From Fragilaria crotonensis (taxonomy: Eukaryota > Bacillariophyta > Fragilariophyceae > Fragilariales > Fragilariaceae): DNA of 64,000 nucleotides. A model generated the notes under the pieces. It ran no database searches. It worked only from the letters and a program-made list of their open reading frames with translations, and had not been told where the DNA came from. Where the stretch lies: positions 88,203 to 152,202 of the forward strand of contig JAKSYS010000059.1 in the NCBI GenBank assembly GCA_022925895.1, read 5' to 3'. Positions 25,884 through 37,418 of this stretch are shown piece after piece (positions within the stretch are counted from its first letter, which is position 1; each line of letters begins with the position of its first letter). Position numbers and translations under genes: made by a program.

Positions 25884-26353
25884 CTTTCTGAGCTCCCAGT
25901 AGGTGCAGTCGTGCATAATTTTCTACTCCGGTGCTCCGGTGGTAGCGAGCATTCGAGGTACCGGTACCGGCATCGCAGTACTCGGAGTACTGGTACGCCT
26001 TTTACTGCGGAGTACTAACGTAGACGTCGAATAAATGGTTCGGTACTCGGTACTGCCTGGCACTTACAGTATGTGAGTGTTTTCTGATGAAGACACAATT
26101 GAATCCCGAGTCCCGACCTGGTTAAACAATTTTTCCTATGCGGGATGGTCATATTGTCATCTTCATAGGACATGTATTATGTATAATCACTTATTACTCA
26201 TAGTACGTAACGTGAAAACCATTTTTGATTTCTTAAAACACAATTGAATCCCGAGTCCCGAGCTGTACAGTACGTAATGTACACATATTTCCACTTTTCA
26301 CTTTTCAAAACCCCATCAATTGATTGATCAACAAATCGGCCACCAATACAACG

Positions 26354-26806
26354 ATGAAGTTGCACATCGCATGTCTATTCTCCATTCTCTCGCTTGCCAA
26401 ATCGAATTTGGAAGGCATGGAGATCGAACTCGGTAGTAGATTCCTGGCAGACCGGGCAGTGACAATGTCGGAGCTTGCAACTCACACCACGTATGAAGCT
26501 GGATTATGGACGTCGCTCGAGGGTATTGTCTACGACATAACCGATTTCACACATCCCGGTGGTTCAAGGATCTTGCGAGTAGGAGGAATCCAGGGCGATT
26601 CACTCTACATGGAAGCATACAACGACGGAGACCATCCTTTTACACTCGCGGAGGTAGTCTCGCAACCTGGTATCGTACGGATCGGTCCGTTGCAGAGTGA
26701 TGATGCCCCCACCACAGCACCGACCGGTGACCCAACCGAACTTCCAACCAGTGGCACCACGACCAATGCACCAAGCAGCAGTAGCACCACGAATGAACCA
26801 ACCTAA
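26354..26806 (+). CDS. secreted cytochrome b5-like protein with Thr/Pro-rich tail (paralog 1)
   Basis: 150 residues from MKLHIACLFS; the start is fixed by comparison with the paralog at 36570, which has the same MKL start in the same context. Residues 1-17 form a signal peptide. Residues 33-115 are a cytochrome b5-like haem/steroid-binding domain: VTMSELATHTTYEAGLWTSL, IVYDITDFTHPGGSRIL (first haem His in HPGG) and NDGDHPF (second His position). The tail (from about residue 117) is Thr/Pro/Ser-rich, with low-complexity PT repeats, and likely O-glycosylated; such tails are common in secreted diatom proteins. No membrane anchor is visible. The acceptor of electrons, if any, is unknown. Single exon. 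Confidence 0.82.
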   Translation: MKLHIACLFSILSLAKSNLEGMEIELGSRFLADRAVTMSELATHTTYEAGLWTSLEGIVYDITDFTHPGGSRILRVGGIQGDSLYMEAYNDGDHPFTLAEVVSQPGIVRIGPLQSDDAPTTAPTGDPTELPTSGTTTNAPSSSSTTNEPT

Positions 26807-30526: not shown

Positions 30527-31788
30527 CAGGGGTCGGAATAGTTATACCAAATACTAACCGGGACAAAAATGTAGCAGCGGTTGGTGCGTGGCCATTTTTT
30601 GGTTAAATGCATCGCTGACTTTATCACGGTTTAGTATTAGTATAACCATAGCCTTCTTTCACCTGCGGTCAGTCAACCGGTACTGCAATGGTCATACCGG
30701 TTAAAACCGGTTCATAAACTGTTGCGTGAGTTCAGAGAGTACTGGATGATTTGGTACTGTAGCCCTGTAAAGTACTATCAAAGAGGTGACTTTGGGTCGT
30801 AAGAATCAACAAATGACAGGATGACAACAAATTCTTGCGCTGCAATTTATACATGTGCAAGTGTATTAGAGGTTGCTAAGCTGGAAACTCCATTACATAT
30901 AAGAAAATTGTGCTCTCAAGTCATTCACATGAAATTCGTACCACCCAGCAGGGATTGGAAAAATAATACTGCAGGACTCGGATTTCAGTATTGAGAGCGT
31001 CTGGTAAATATTTGGTATACCCCGTCGTAAATTTGAACGAACGGATAGTTATGCAATAATATGAAGTCCAAGTGGTTGGTACAAAATATATTTCCCATTT
31101 ATTTCGAGCTTGGGTAAATGACTGGTATCTTTCATTCCAGTCTGGTAGGTATCGGTACTACTGCAACGTACTGGAGAGTGAATTACAGTACTGTAACGTC
31201 TAACGGAACTGGCTTTTACTTAGATGTTTGCTGCTAAAATTAAGAATGTACCGTCATACGTGTTTTAGAATGTATTGCTGAATGTACGTATATACATCGG
31301 CATGTGCTCTTAATACCGCCTTTCGAGATACCAACGCCCTTCCTTGGTAAATAATAACCAAGGGGTACGGGTTACTGGTTGGTATACTCAAAAGCACCCT
31401 GGTAGGTAGAACCAGTACCGATATGAATTCAGTTATCGGATACCAGGCCGTGGGAAAATCTCAGTTTTGGTGGGGGTTATATACCATGGGTATTTGGTAT
31501 CCGGTACCAGTAATAACTATTTTCCAATCCCTGCCACCCAGTATCCTTGATAACCAGGAGGTTCTTCAGAATACCACAATGTGGTAGTATACTGTGCCGC
31601 AGCAGTAGTTAGTTACGATTGGGCCCGGTATCAGGTCAGTCATAACCGGGGTGGCGTGGTAGTATTTGGTTAAATGACCACCAATGCACCACCGGTTTCC
31701 TGGTTTTTTTTAAATGCCAGTTTTGGTACGGTTAAAAACCGGGAAACCGGGTATACCAGAACCGGTAGTATAACTATTCCAACCCCTG
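30527..31788. mobile_element. hAT-like MITE family 5, copy 1 (empty-site copy)
   Basis: Terminal repeats CAGGGGTCGGAATAGTTA ... TAACTATTCCAACCCCTG. It is flanked by a perfect 8-bp duplication, GTATATAG (30519-30526 and 31789-31796), which fits the hAT preference nTnnnnAn. Without the MITE nested in it (30949-31533 plus one 8-bp duplication) it is about 670 bp. It is the sister of 31804-35962 and at the matching place reads TACTGTAGCCCTGTAAAG, where the sister carries a 3.5-kb TA-flanked insertion: it is thus the empty site for that transposon. Confidence 0.9.
30949..31533. mobile_element. hAT-like MITE, family 1, copy C (585 bp)
   Basis: Complete copy with CAGGGATTGGAAAAATA ... TATTTTCCAATCCCTG ends and a perfect 8-bp duplication CCACCCAG on both sides (30941-30948 and 31534-31541). 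Same length as copy A. It lies inside MITE family 5 copy 1, so family 1 was active after family 5 inserted. Confidence 0.93.
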
Positions 31789-32045
31789 GTATATAGTATA
31801 TACCAGGGGTCGGAATAGTTACACCAAATACCAACCGGGACAAAAATGTAGCAGCGGTTGGTGTACCGGTTGTTGTGGTGGCAATTTTGAATGCATCGCT
31901 GACTTTACCACGGTTTAGTATTAGTATAACCATAGCCTTTTTTCACCTCCGGTCGGTCAACCGGTACAACAATCGTCATACCGGTTAAAGCCGGTTCATA
32001 TACTGTCGCGCGAGTACGGAGAGTACTGGATGATTTGGTACTGTA

Positions 32046-35000
32046 TGGCTGGTTTTTTTGTGAACCTTCCTGCCGTACTCCCTCATACAAAATCTACTAC
32101 GGTACACAAAACTCCATACTAAAAACGACAGATGCCGAATTCATGATCGAGAACAAACACACTTGACACCAACACACCACGATCTTTGAAGTCAAGTTCA
32201 TTCATTCCATTCGCACACCCACTTCAGTCTCTTCCCCTGTTATCTATGCATGATCATCCTCTCTTTTGCTGCTGCTTCATGCTTCAATTCTGAATTCACG
32301 AACCCTCGGTCAAAATCAAGAGCACAGCGGTGCACCTTGAAGTCCTTCATCAGTCGCTCAATTTCAGTGAACAGCAATTCCTGCTTCTGTGACAGGGCAC
32401 TGCCATCAAGAATGTCCGCTGATCGTTGGTCCAAGTAGTAGTAAGTGCAGATGTATGCACGTGCCCTGGCAGCAAACTTCTGAACCCTTTCTCTCGTCAA
32501 AATTTCAGCAGGACATGTGCAATCTTTCACAAGTATCTTGAAATTCTCACGACCTCGCTTCGATGAGACTGGCTTTCGGCGATAATACGACTTCGCATGG
32601 GCCCAACAGTACTCCACTCCCTCACCCGCCAGCTCAGCATGGAATTTAGGGGTGAGGAGGACCGTCACACCAAGTTGAGCACCGAGGTGCTGAAGTGCTG
32701 TCTCCTCCTCTCGGAAGTCAACACATTTTGCAAGTAGATGTCGGAGCGAGGAGTTTGTATCGACAACTCCTGTTATTGGATCTTTCCGGCCATCAATAGT
32801 GTAAGACGCTAGCTGCTCTTTGGAATCACTTATCAAGCCTCGTTCCCAAAGAACTTGGAGGAGTCCTTTCGGCTGCCCTTCCCAGCCATGAATTATCTCG
32901 GTCCTCTCATAGTGAAGGTCGACTCCATTATTCCGAGCGAATTCTTGAAGTTCTTTTTTTGTGTGGTTCCTCTGTTTCTGAAGTATTACTCCAGAGGATT
33001 CGAGTGCATCAACAAGGAGCTTTTTGGTCCTCTCAATTCGTTTGCTTCGTCCTGTTGATTGATTATATCGTCGTGTTTCTCTTTCCTCACTTGAAAGGTA
33101 CCATGGTCCAACATCGGTTGGCCTGTCAAACACCATGGATTGGATATCACCGACTTCAAGTTTTGAAGCAAATGGACCGAGAAAGCCTTCCGATGCAAGT
33201 ATAGTTGTTTCTCGCATCGGCAATTGAGCACCACCAAAATGCTTTGACATTTGCTTTGCGTCAAGAGCACCATTTCGTTTCCGAGCATGGCCTTGGCTAT
33301 GATCGAAGAGGAATACAAACTCGTATCGTGGATAAAGCACCTTCAAACAGTCAACCACATCCTCAAACTGGAGAGCCATGTGAAAGCTATTCCAGTATCC
33401 CTCGTTGTTGGCTCCAATGAAGAGGTACTTTACGAATGGGGAGTGAGTCAAAGGTGGCTTGTCAAATGTCTTCGTTACTTCACTTGCGGCATGTGTATCA
33501 AGGTACTGCCTTCCTAACCTTGTCGCATTTATTGCCATTAGTTCATCGGTTGTCAATGGCCTTCCAAAGCCAAATTCCCGTGACACAAATGCTGAAAGCA
33601 TGTATCCATCGCCTTCAGATTTTGGCAGGAGTGGGCGCTGACCTTTAGGTCCAACCCAGGTCTTGGACCCGAGGAGATATTGGGCAAAGACACTTTCGTC
33701 TTGACCAACAATCATTATTGGTCGTGCACCCGGAGGTGCTCGAACACTCATGCTTGCAATCTTGTTAGGAAGTACTAAGGATCCTGTCTGCCTTGCCATC
33801 CAATAGTCGACATGAAACTCTACCCATGGTTCCTCAGTGTTAGAATGTATATAGTGGTAACCGAATTTCGATGTCAATATTGCTGATTGATTTTGCTTCT
33901 GCCTGTGGGAGTTGTATCCATCGCTCACATCGTGGCTCGTACTCAGTCAGATATCTTCTACAAAAAATACTGCGATAGGCCACCACATCGTCTCTCTCGT
34001 GTCCATCGACATAGAAACTCTTTTTTTCGTGCATCATAGCTAAAACCGAGTAGATGCATCCACCTCCAGACAGTTGTCATACTCAATGTTGCAAGCCCAT
34101 GTGCATTAAGAAACAATGCAACAATTTTATCGTTCTCCTCGTTCTCTAGCAGTCCATCGTCAACTGGTGTTTGTGTTTCCTCACTGGCACAAGACTCCTT
34201 CGTGTCCTTGTCATCCTTCCATTCGATGATCAACTTTGGAAGAAGTACCGTAGAGATAAATTCATGAACTTCTTCTATAGTTAACGTGGCTAGCTTTCGT
34301 ACTGCAAATGAAGTAATGTCGTCTTTCGCACTTGGGAACGCTTCGAAGAGTCTTGGCGATGGGCGTTTACCACATTGGACGTAGGGATTAGGATGTGGAA
34401 AGTTGTCGAGGGAACGATATAGTATGTTCCAATTTGCTACCGTCTTGTAACTTGTCGCTTGTGTGAGACCAACACTATTTAAACGTGTACAAGCCTGCTG
34501 GCAACATTCATGCCATGTCCATTTGTTCATGTGCTTGAGTGCGAGCTGGTATGCACAACACAGGAAGAGGGCTCGCTGTCGAACCTCAAAGATTTCTGAC
34601 TTTGAGCAGAAGTTATTAGGGTCCCTTCCATCAACAATGTTACGCCAGGAATCTTCACTTTGATTTGCCGATTTTAAAACTTCGATACGTCGCTCAACTA
34701 CCTCCTGAGGACTCTCAGTGCAGTTGGTTGCATCTCCTCCGGCTGCTAAGATTTGACGTGGCATGAAAAGCTGATACGCCTCAGGACTATCCGGCCAATA
34801 AGAAATTGTTGCTCTCGTGGGGCATTCTTGAATTAGCTCCTCGCTTCGTTGCCGTTTTGAAGGATGATCCTCAACGCTTTGTTTGCCCTCCTCGGGTTCT
34901 TTATCAGAGTGAGCCTCCAAAGGTCTCGATCTTGTTGCTGGGATAAGAAGAACATTCTTGCCCATGGCATTGACTCTGTCTCTCCATTCATCATTCAAAG

Positions 35001-35570
35001 GAAACGGATATGAAACTTGCTTATTCCTATCGGTGAAAAAATAGAAATACTTTTTTTGGTACTTGACTCGGAAGACTCCAGTTGTGTTTGACCCGTCGAA
35101 GTGTGTCATCGACTCATACCACGCTGAGTGCCAACTTGACATAGATCTATTGAACTTTCGAACATCCACCTTGATTAAATCATTGTCAACGATTCCACTC
35201 TTTGCCAAAGCGTCAACCCAAGTTGTGGCTGGTAGCCATCTGTTGCATAGTCTGGGACCGAGCCTTGGATCTTCACGCAGCATCAACACGGTCCTTGACA
35301 AAATTGCCGAAATTCCTGTTGCAGCCTCCATTCTGACTGTCCTGGCTTTAACACCTTGGTTCCTGACGTGATAAGGTACAGATTGGTATGGGCTAGGCAC
35401 TTGCCAAGTAGTGCAAGTGTTGTGATGAGAGCGGTGAAATCCCATTGTGAAACGCTTGCTTTCGTCGCGACAACAAATTCCATCCATGACGTCACAACCA
35501 TAATATTTGTTGTCTCGTGTACATTTCATACCAGGCCGTGCGCCAGGGATGTTGCACGTGAAACCAGCCA
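32046..35570 (-). mobile_element. IS630/Tc1-mariner-type DNA transposon with a giant DDE transposase
   Basis: 3,525 bp flanked by TA on both sides (32044-32045 and 35571-35572). The ends share a short inverted repeat, TGGCTGGTTT. The empty site is visible in the sister MITE (30527-31788), which proves both boundaries and the TA duplication. Nearly the whole element is occupied by one transposase gene on the minus strand, now in three frames. TA targets and the DDE signature place it in the IS630/Tc1/mariner superfamily, but the protein (about 1,100 residues) is roughly three times the usual 340-350, resembling the long DDE proteins known from fungi and algae. TIRs are unusually short. Confidence 0.88.
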
Positions 35571-35571
35571 T
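32240..35571 (-). pseudogene. long IS630/Tc1-mariner-type DDE transposase, two frame breaks
   Basis: Read from 35571 downwards. N-terminal part, 35571-34023 (about 515 residues): Cys-rich start, a region with RWLPATTWVDALA, an RQRALFLCCAYQLALKHM helix, and LSMTTVWRWMHLLGFSYDARKK. Frame 2, about 34020-33905: SFYVDGHERDDVVAYRSIF and YEPRCERWIQL. Frame 3, about 33900-32240: the catalytic domain with IVGQDESVF (first Asp), FLFDHSQGHA (second Asp), QPKGLLQVLWERGL, and PKFHAELAGEGVEYCWAHAK (acidic third residue). These blocks occur in the same order in fungal long DDE proteins. The first break lies in an A7 run (34021-34027), the second within about 35 bp of a run of A. The start ATG is formed by the A of the target TA plus the terminal TG of the element. 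Real decay or assembly errors are both possible. Confidence 0.85.
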
Positions 35572-35991
35572 ACCCACTGTAAACTACTATCAACGAAGTG
35601 ACTTGGCACCAAAAATTCTTGCACTGCAGTTTCTAGTTTTTACAGTATATGTGCAAGTATTTAGAGATTGACAAGCCGGAAAATGTCATTCACATGAAAT
35701 TCGTACGACCTAGTATCCTCGATAACCAGGAGGCTTTCCAGAATACCGCAATAGTATACTGTGCCACACCAGTAGTTAGTTATGATTGGGGCCGGTATCA
35801 GGTCAGTCATAACCGTGGTGGCACGTGGCACAGTTGTATTTGGTTAAATGACCACCAATGCACCACCGGTTTCCCCGTTTTTAAAAAATGCCAGTTTTGG
35901 TACGGTTTAAAACCGGGAAACCGGGTATACCAGAACCGGTAGTATAACTATTCCAACCCCTGGTGTATACCATCGGCCATCGGTATTTGGT

Positions 35992-36569
35992 CTCTGAGTA
36001 TGGTTGTCTATGTATAGTCAATGATACGAGGAGTTTTAATGCGAGATTGACACGATTCCACAAGTTCCAAAAGGAATGACTCGCACCCATTGAGATTTAA
36101 CATATTGACATCGAGTGTCTCATGTTTGCGAACATTCTTTTCTTTTATGTTTAAAGAACCACGTTAAAAGAGATTGAAAAGTTTTCCACAACTTCCGAAC
36201 GTACTCCGAGTACAAGTACCAGGTACCTGGTACTCTATGTCATGTGTGCCTTGATGAATCAAACAGTCCCGTTATGTATGTAAGTGTATTTTTCACTGGT
36301 TGTGTAATCCTACTTCACTGGTTCTCTAATCCTACGTATGCACGTCATGATGTCACATGACACGAGAGACTGTCACACCCCTACGCCCCTTGCAACACTA
36401 CAAATACTACGGTACAACATGTGCGTATGCATAAATGTCAGAATCTACGTGACCGTGTTTCCCCGAATGACCCTTACTGGATTATGCATAGGATGTTTAC
36501 ACCTCACAGAGAATCATTTGCTTTTAGTCATAAAATCTTCGATTGTGCAATTCACAAACGTACACCACA
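35992..36569. other. upstream region of cytochrome b5-like paralog 2
   Basis: No gene seen. Palindromic GTACTCCGAGTAC and GTACCAGGTACCTGGTAC words lie at 36203-36234. Presumed promoter of the gene at 36570. Confidence 0.4.
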
Positions 36570-37418
36570 ATGAAGTTGATCGTCGCATGCCTTATCTCCA
36601 TTCTCGCGTTTGCCCACTCCCATGTGGAAGAACTGGAGATGGGCAAAGGGAATAGATTCCTCGCCGATCGTACTGTGACCGTGTCGGAGCTTGCGACTCA
36701 CAAGACATATGCTGCTGGATTATGGACGTCCCTAGGGGGGATTGTCTATGACGTGACAAATTTCAGTCATCCAGGTGGTACGAAAATCTTACAGGTCGGA
36801 GGGATTGAGGGCGATACGCTTTACAACAAGGCATACAACGACAGAGTCCATCCGTACACTATCGCACAGGTAGTTACCCAACCTGGCATCGTACGTATTG
36901 GCCCATTGCAGAGGAATCCTGTCCCTACTAGAGCACCAACCCGCGCCCCCACCAAACGGCCAACCTCTGGTTCCACAACCAAGGCACCGACTCGCCGCCC
37001 TACGAAAAAGCCAACCGCTGGTTCCACAACCAAGGCACCAACCCGCCTTCCTACTAAACGACCAACCCTCCCCCCTACGAAACCACCAACCCTCCCCCCT
37101 ACGAAACGACCAACCCCTGTTCCTACGAAACCACCAACACCTGTCCCTACAACGAAATCACCAACCCTCGGCGCCGTCAGAGGGCCAACATCACCCCCTA
37201 ATGCCCGTGATTCAACTCCTTCGACCGAAAGCCCTGTGACCGAAAGCCCTGTGAACGAAAGCCCTGTCGACGGCGATGATGACGATGACAATGATGAGGA
37301 TGAGGACGAAGATGAGGACGAAGATGAGGACGAAGATGAGGACGAAGATGAGGACGAAGATGAGGATGAAGATGAGGACGAAGATGAAGACGAAGATAAC
37401 GACAATATCTTCAATTGA
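36570..37418 (+). CDS. secreted cytochrome b5-like protein with P/T repeats and acidic tail (paralog 2)
   Basis: 282 residues from MKLIVACLIS. Signal peptide 1-17; cytochrome b5-like domain at about 33-115 with VTVSELATHKTYAAGLWTSL, IVYDVTNFSHPGGTKIL (haem His in HPGG) and NDRVHPY (second His). About 70% of the domain is identical to the paralog at 26354. Residues 118-215 are proline/threonine repeats (APTRRPTKKPT, LPPTKPPTLPPTK), positively charged and likely glycosylated. Residues 233-278 are almost pure Asp/Glu, encoded by a GAGGACGAAGAT-type tandem repeat (37276-37400). Basic PT repeats followed by a polyacidic end are suggestive of a cell-wall or silica/Ca-binding extracellular protein; that is inference. 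Single exon. Confidence 0.85.
   Translation: MKLIVACLISILAFAHSHVEELEMGKGNRFLADRTVTVSELATHKTYAAGLWTSLGGIVYDVTNFSHPGGTKILQVGGIEGDTLYNKAYNDRVHPYTIAQVVTQPGIVRIGPLQRNPVPTRAPTRAPTKRPTSGSTTKAPTRRPTKKPTAGSTTKAPTRLPTKRPTLPPTKPPTLPPTKRPTPVPTKPPTPVPTTKSPTLGAVRGPTSPPNARDSTPSTESPVTESPVNESPVDGDDDDDNDEDEDEDEDEDEDEDEDEDEDEDEDEDEDEDEDEDNDNIFN
37276..37400 (+). repeat. in-frame (GAGGACGAAGAT)n repeat coding Asp/Glu
   Basis: About ten imperfect 12-bp units of GAGGACGAAGAT-type. It encodes the acidic tail of paralog 2; the paralog at 26354 has none, so this is a recent expansion. Confidence 0.85.

Follow-up and report, generated by a model that had tools for sequence, protein, structure and literature searches.

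The window analysed here, a 64,000-nucleotide stretch of contig C560, contains two adjacent copies of a host repeat that differ at this place exactly by an insert. The locus raises the question of whether this insert is a complete DNA transposon, and to which kind of transposon its very long gene belongs. A sequence-only reading had described it as a TA-flanked IS630/Tc1-mariner-type element with a natural empty site next door that fixes both of its ends to the base. Here, we trace the element through the assembly (62.1 Mb, 881 contigs), whose silicon transporter genes (Pfam Silic_transp, best E 4e-193) point to a diatom host. The window element is very probably a copy, now inactive, of an autonomous DNA transposon of cut-and-paste type that falls within the IS630-Tc1-mariner (ITm) group, in a divergent lineage that has expanded in this diatom.

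Ends and empty sites of the window element

The body of the transposon measures 3,525 bp (window 32046-35570) and is bordered by TA dinucleotides, so that the full span of 32044-35572 reads TA, TGGCTGGTTT...AAACCAGCCA, TA. The perfect inverted termini of the window element, TGGCTGGTTT, are 10 bp long. The joined flanks of the filled host repeat align through the junction with the sister copy, which has one TA there. Homology between the two repeats stops on the left at 30761/32045 and restarts on the right at 30765/35577. The empty site next door was thus read correctly, and so was the completeness of the element, which has TA at both ends and relatives with the same termini. The features of the locus are collected in Table 1.

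Table 1. Features of the transposon locus in window coordinates
Feature	Position	Strand	Evidence
Left copy of TA target-site duplication	32044..32045		one TA at the empty site in the sister repeat
Right copy of TA target-site duplication	35571..35572		window sequence and sister-repeat alignment
Transposon body, 3,525 bp, gene on minus strand	32046..35570	-	TA flanks, termini, empty site, relatives
Composite left end (3' end of gene), TGGCTGGTTT and blocks at end positions 25-34, 42-46 and 52-54	32044..32097	+	conservation in 15 elements
Composite right end (5' end of gene), left-end blocks in inverted orientation	35519..35572	-	conservation in 15 elements
Sister repeat without insert, natural empty site, TA at 30760-30761	30527..31788		alignment
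Host repeat copy containing the insert, limits approximate	31796..35970		inverted ends; direct repeats shared with the sister copy
TGACGTCA (CRE/bZIP-type palindrome), 79 bp from gene-side end	35487..35494		recurrence in relatives
Transposase gene, broken: two frameshifts, three frames	32240..35331	-	homology and open frames of relatives
Frame 1: N-terminal region (WLPAETW block), linker, WTWxxCC block, HTH-like segment up to VDGHER block	34015..35325	-	tblastn with P0001; alignment
Frame 2: VDGHERDDVV block	33870..34025	-	tblastn with P0001
Frame 3: catalytic region, 568-codon open frame	32240..33946	-	list of open reading frames and tblastn with P0001
First catalytic Asp codon (GQDES)	33698..33700	-	residue 83 of the 568-codon frame
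Second catalytic Asp codon (FLFDHSQGH)	33302..33304	-	residue 215 of the 568-codon frame
Catalytic Glu codon (AGEGVEYCW)	32612..32614	-	residue 445 of the 568-codon frame
SAP-like segment between second Asp and Glu, approximate	32891..32965	-	transferred by alignment from P0001 residues 825-849

A second base-exact empty site belongs to the relative L012, whose 42-nt joined flank with a single TA was found once, at C175:100772-100813, with 0 mismatches; five diverged matches (73-76%) also cross this junction. The junction of L021 is crossed by one 89% match, and its joined pattern was not found in the genome with up to three mismatches. For L025, the junction is crossed by a single weak match on C394 (74% over 103 query bases). 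The only match to the L009 flank, at C459, is broken and does not extend across the junction, and no match crosses those of L013 and L023. The flank search covered loci other than L015, L016, L018, L029, L031, L039, and L045.

The sister repeat contains another nested stretch of about 590 bp (window 30948-31534) with the inverted ends GCAGGGATTGGAAAA and TTTTCCAATCCCTGC. Two similar open reading frames, at window positions 26324-26806 and 36534-37418, flank the region. They share a VSELATHxTYxAGLWTS...HPGG-type region of cytochrome b5-like look, followed by threonine/proline-rich stretches, and the frame at 36534-37418 ends in a long acidic run.

A transposon family with composite ends

Searches of the genome returned 63 matches at the DNA level and 67 at the protein level, the latter being the number scored among 964 first-look candidates. 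The back-translated catalytic motif GEG(x)EYxW matches the genome 208 times, against 0 for its reversed control. The terminal motif TGGCWGGTTTC occurs 367 times when TA is not required (54 for the control), and in 255 of these places it follows TA, forming TATGGCWGGTTTC (3 of the 54 for the reversed control). Among the first 100 places listed, 37 of 38 TATGGCWGGTTTC neighbors less than 5 kb apart are convergent.

TA-flanked TGGCWGG-type termini delimit 17 of the 39 loci cut out, at lengths of 2.9-3.6 kb, in a count that requires TA and allows up to 2 mismatches. Eight further loci end in TA and CAGCAGGTTT (12 loci viewed, chosen from near-identical pairs). The proposed extraction of full-length TA-flanked copies therefore yielded both ends in 25 of the 39 loci; among the later-cut loci L048-L052, both were present in two of five (L049 and L052). 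Sixteen of 18 relatives with the same type of termini are 3.50-3.69 kb long. The other two, L026 and L030, measure 2.9 kb and have common flanks, and represent one insertion in a duplicated stretch.

Near-identical copies share their end points and sit in different flanks. This holds for the pairs L015/L017 (99.7%), L029/L031 (99.7%), and L014/L032 (99.2%), and for L034-L037 and L040, which are 98.8-99.4% alike. A comparison of copies had been proposed as a check for differing ends; it found the same ends throughout these copies. Because they lie in different flanks, the family appears to have been mobile recently, and its open-framed, nearly identical members make mobility testable. For 19 insertions, each selected because it has TA at both ends, 24 of the 38 bases next to the target fit G-TA-C; local TA sites would lead one to expect 33% (P 1.7e-4).

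Taken by itself, the window copy, broken as it is and with a perfect inverted repeat of no more than 10 bp, could be read as repeats paired by chance on both sides of a host gene, with no transposon involved. Two empty sites, the loci with both TA-flanked ends (25/39), and the 99%-identical copies in different flanks speak against such a pairing, which we regard as next to impossible; the comparison of copies refutes it. The elements form a real family of DNA transposons that target TA and encode a DDE transposase, and the window copy is a dead member of it.

Size classes are apparent among the 37 convergent TATGGCWGGTTTC pairs from the first 100 places listed. Fifteen pairs are 3.4-3.8 kb long and three about 1.5 kb. 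A second size class of 1.83-1.90 kb has the same TATGGCWGGTTTC ends and comprises 15 pairs (for example, C218:425406-427284 and C2:105330-107209); its members are either non-autonomous derivatives or a shorter autonomous relative.

The ends had been read as short, simple inverted repeats, which proved incorrect: they are composite and about 54 bp long. In 15 elements chosen to stand for different subfamilies, the two ends have matching blocks at equal distances from the tip, at positions 1-14, 25-34, 42-46, and 52-54. Within one element, both ends carry the outer block (1-14), TCCTnGCGTA (25-34), GTA (42-44), and TAC (52-54). TA dinucleotides spaced about 10 bp apart are found at position 33 in 22 of the 30 ends, at 43 in 29, and at 52 in 27. 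When compared in register, the ends are 52% identical over positions 15-46, whereas other offsets give 21-33%; positions 50-100 as a whole have 30%, similar to other offsets.

The palindrome TGACGTCA is present on the gene side only, at position 79 in six of the 15 elements, at 81 in one, and at 56 in L052. It occurs nowhere else in these elements. The other seven lack the full palindrome, and L012 and L025 retain its TGACGT half at position 79. The background frequency is about one per 13 kb of all sequence examined, elements and repeated copies included. Sites of this type bind bZIP factors, and in diatoms bZIP/aureochrome proteins act through them in responding to light and CO2. The palindrome near the gene-side end is a possible built-in bZIP-type promoter site, and its fixed position beside the gene in about half of the elements offers a concrete hypothesis on what switches the gene on.

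The transposase and its domains

The homology of the window gene to protein P0001 runs along the minus strand in three frames (35325-34015, 34025-33870, and 33865-32282; tblastn). A gene of about 1,100 codons had been proposed that reaches the terminus in three frames. The gene is indeed long, about 1,030 codons split over three frames, and extends from a likely start ATG at 35331, about 240 bp inside the element, to a stop codon at 32240-32242. Homology of the relatives begins at 35325-35355, and the frame that reaches the terminus is unmatched in them. Since relatives read the same region in one frame, the window gene contains two frameshifts, which make the copy dead. Programmed frameshifting is ruled out as the cause of the three frames by the single frame of the relatives, as is a start codon within the terminal repeat by homology that begins about 240 bp inside.

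Open frames, counted stop to stop, comprise 1,077 codons in L015, 1,072 in L014, 1,055 in L047, 1,160 in L048, 1,108 in L049, 1,072 in L051, and 1,064 in L052. The open-framed members encode one protein of up to about 1,050-1,160 residues by the same count. In six of six pairs, the third codon position is the most variable, two to four times more so than the second. Because third positions differ most, the frames have been under coding constraint.

Thirteen diatom sequences, several of them partial, have GQDE/GHDE, FDHS, and GEG(I/V)EY blocks in common. The first Asp and the Glu are present in 13 of 13 and the second Asp in 12 of 13. Spacers of 131-134 residues separate the two Asp residues, and 222-240 residues separate the second Asp from the Glu. 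The conserved triad and the relatives' frames of 1,055-1,160 codons bear out the very long DDE transposase of the sequence-only reading. L052 (878-4069) is a 1,064-codon copy, otherwise open, in which Glu replaces the second catalytic Asp.

Between the second Asp and the Glu, P0001 has a weak match to the Pfam model SAP_new25 (E 0.0021, 18.1 bits against a cut-off of 26.3), and a SAP-like match is found in four of 19 members at E up to 1. The first approximately 240 residues and the WTWxxCC region are conserved among eight sequences, with 23-60% identity to the first, in agreement with the proposed conserved N-terminal region ahead of the VDGHER block. Profile and Pfam searches gave these parts no convincing match except for an HTH-like segment at their end. 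Weak HTH_33 matches were obtained for three of 19 members when E up to 1 was allowed (best 0.0016) and for two of eight at E up to 10 (best 0.00082), with a score, where printed, of 15.4 bits against a cut-off of 25.

Pfam DDE_3 matched none of the diatom members scanned, nor anything in the whole genome at E 0.001. NCBIfam had no match for four proteins, and profile searches of the PDB found no transposase and nothing relevant. Two AlphaFold models, in which the RNase H-like catalytic fold of ITm transposases would be expected, are both of low confidence (mean pLDDT 34.8 and 42.4). Annotation may be incomplete in genomes with many such proteins, given that the Pfam and NCBIfam models used here do not recognize them.

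We hypothesize that the N-terminal and HTH-like parts of the protein bind the outer TGGCWGGTTT block and the inner TA-containing blocks spaced about 10 bp apart. The transposase would then bring both ends together, its DDE domain would cut the element out, and the excised element would be joined to TA, preferably within GTAC. More tentatively, we speculate that the family could be a separate ITm lineage of superfamily rank, "DD226E". Such a lineage would combine a SAP-like module inserted into the catalytic domain, a new N-terminal domain that binds DNA at composite ends whose TA-containing blocks recur at intervals of about 10 bp, and a CRE/bZIP promoter of its own, which could link transposition to light or CO2 signaling in diatoms.

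Shorter relatives and comparison with known systems

Three transposase sequences of eukaryotic look, L053, L055, and the fragment L054, are filed under archaeal or bacterial MAGs. They were found using a DNA pattern derived from a motif of fungal proteins (three in genome contigs, 0 in viral contigs). Proteins similar to L053 occur in fungi. The filing of the three sequences under prokaryotic MAGs is probably binning contamination, and the L053 contig, assigned to an archaeal MAG, is likely eukaryotic.

The shorter relative L053 has 709 codons from stop to stop and spacers of 105 and 129 residues, and lacks the segment around the SAP-like match. Its alignment with the diatom profile (hhalign, E 9e-31, probability 99.9%) spans 371 columns and takes in the two D blocks as well as the E block; BLASTP supports the relationship at E 4e-12. 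The N-terminal comparison aligned 33 columns, covering the HTH-like segment only, at 34.6% probability. DDE_3 is the sole Pfam match of L053 below E 0.1 (27.0 bits, just below the cut-off of 28.6); a PaREP1 match (0.13) is taken as chance. L055 matches HTH_33 with 24.1 bits against a cut-off of 25. The plasmid matches of L053 are weak (E 0.2 to 10), and all 14 are annotated as transposases, 11 of them of the IS630 family; they are not independent, because 12 come from Piscirickettsia. L053 has candidate TA-flanked inverted ends that begin with TGG and match in 18 of 21 letters, picked among several inverted matches.

Tblastn searches of plasmids with P0001 (E 0.01) and its catalytic part (E 10) gave no match, and the link to IS630 is therefore a two-step one. 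The phage tblastn search found no relatives. Profile scans, each using two short peptide patterns, confirmed none of 11 and none of 36 candidates in two scans of viral contigs, and none of 31 in genome contigs. The proposed IS630/Tc1-mariner type is supported indirectly, by L053 and L055, through which the placement is likely, and finds no direct counterpart in the diatom members themselves, given their lack of a DDE_3 match, the weak HTH_33 match, and PDB profile searches without a transposase. These absences, together with the large insert and an N-terminal region without known relatives, would also suit a TA-specific DDE transposon outside ITm, with an IS630 likeness that is convergent or confined to the E block. 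We consider this unlikely, as the L053 alignment takes in both D blocks as well as the E block, DDE_3 is the one Pfam model that L053 matches below E 0.1, its plasmid matches are transposases, and the TA target and putative HTH_33-like segment fit ITm.

Loci of the short-spacer type, 40-49% identical to L053, are present on the diatom contigs C548, C131, C395, and C265 (63 of 674 candidates scored), so short- and long-spacer types coexist in the diatom genome. On C548, the match to residues 242-705 of L053 takes up 457 codons, interrupted by one stop, and the locus therefore lacks the long insert. This short-spacer member (C548:204324-205694, 44% identical to L053) has a long-spacer neighbor about 1.7 kb away (C548:207404-209293). 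The proposed DDE phylogeny could be built from 15 catalytic regions, with no named Tc1/mariner sequences included, and sets the diatom proteins apart from L053/L055 with full support; it gives no placement among named families because the L053/L055 branches are very long.

The diatom family resembles ITm in its TA duplication, inverted ends, DDE triad with an IE..W..(A)K block, and putative HTH-like segment before the catalytic domain. L053 shares with it the VDGHE-type block, the D, D, and E blocks, a KPKG..Q.L.ERG block, and candidate TA-flanked TGG ends, and differs in its DD129E spacing, 709 codons, and absence of the segment with the SAP-like match. Zator elements have a three-base target duplication, whereas the duplication here is the two-base TA. 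Tc1/mariner proteins have about 340 residues; the diatom protein is about three times longer, with frames of 1,055-1,160 codons, and its members have no listed DDE_3 match and only a weak HTH_33 match. The D-to-E spacer of 222-240 residues compares with about 34-41 in Tc1/mariner in the narrow sense, according to the accessible part of PMC8533490. The pogo superfamily, an ITm relative, is present in stramenopiles (PMC7386202, in part), and its triad is described as DDxD (PMC8533490, in part), in contrast to the Glu found as third residue in 13 of 13 diatom proteins.

A described ITm superfamily with an unusually long protein would most plausibly be Sailor (DD82E). Sailor belongs to the ITm lineage, has an enlarged spacer and a CEL.(P)IE block, and is reported in stramenopiles, and the L053 E block FHCELNFIE resembles its consensus HCELNPIEL (PMC8533490, in part). 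The same part of that source gives Sailor DD78-111E, predominantly TATA duplications, termini that usually start with GT or CC, and proteins of 323-676 residues. The diatom elements have DD222-240E, TA duplications only, TGG or CAG termini, and frames of 1,055-1,160 codons, which makes membership in Sailor quite improbable.

Our literature search, outside which most subscription papers lie, found no description of the long-spacer lineage; this is weak evidence of absence, and agrees with the earlier impression of a poorly described lineage. Set against the descriptions in the accessible parts of PMC8533490, PMC7325037, and PMC7386202, the diatom family fits none of the named superfamilies in spacer, size, termini, and target. 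Its D-to-E spacer is at least twice the longest Sailor value and holds a possible extra domain.
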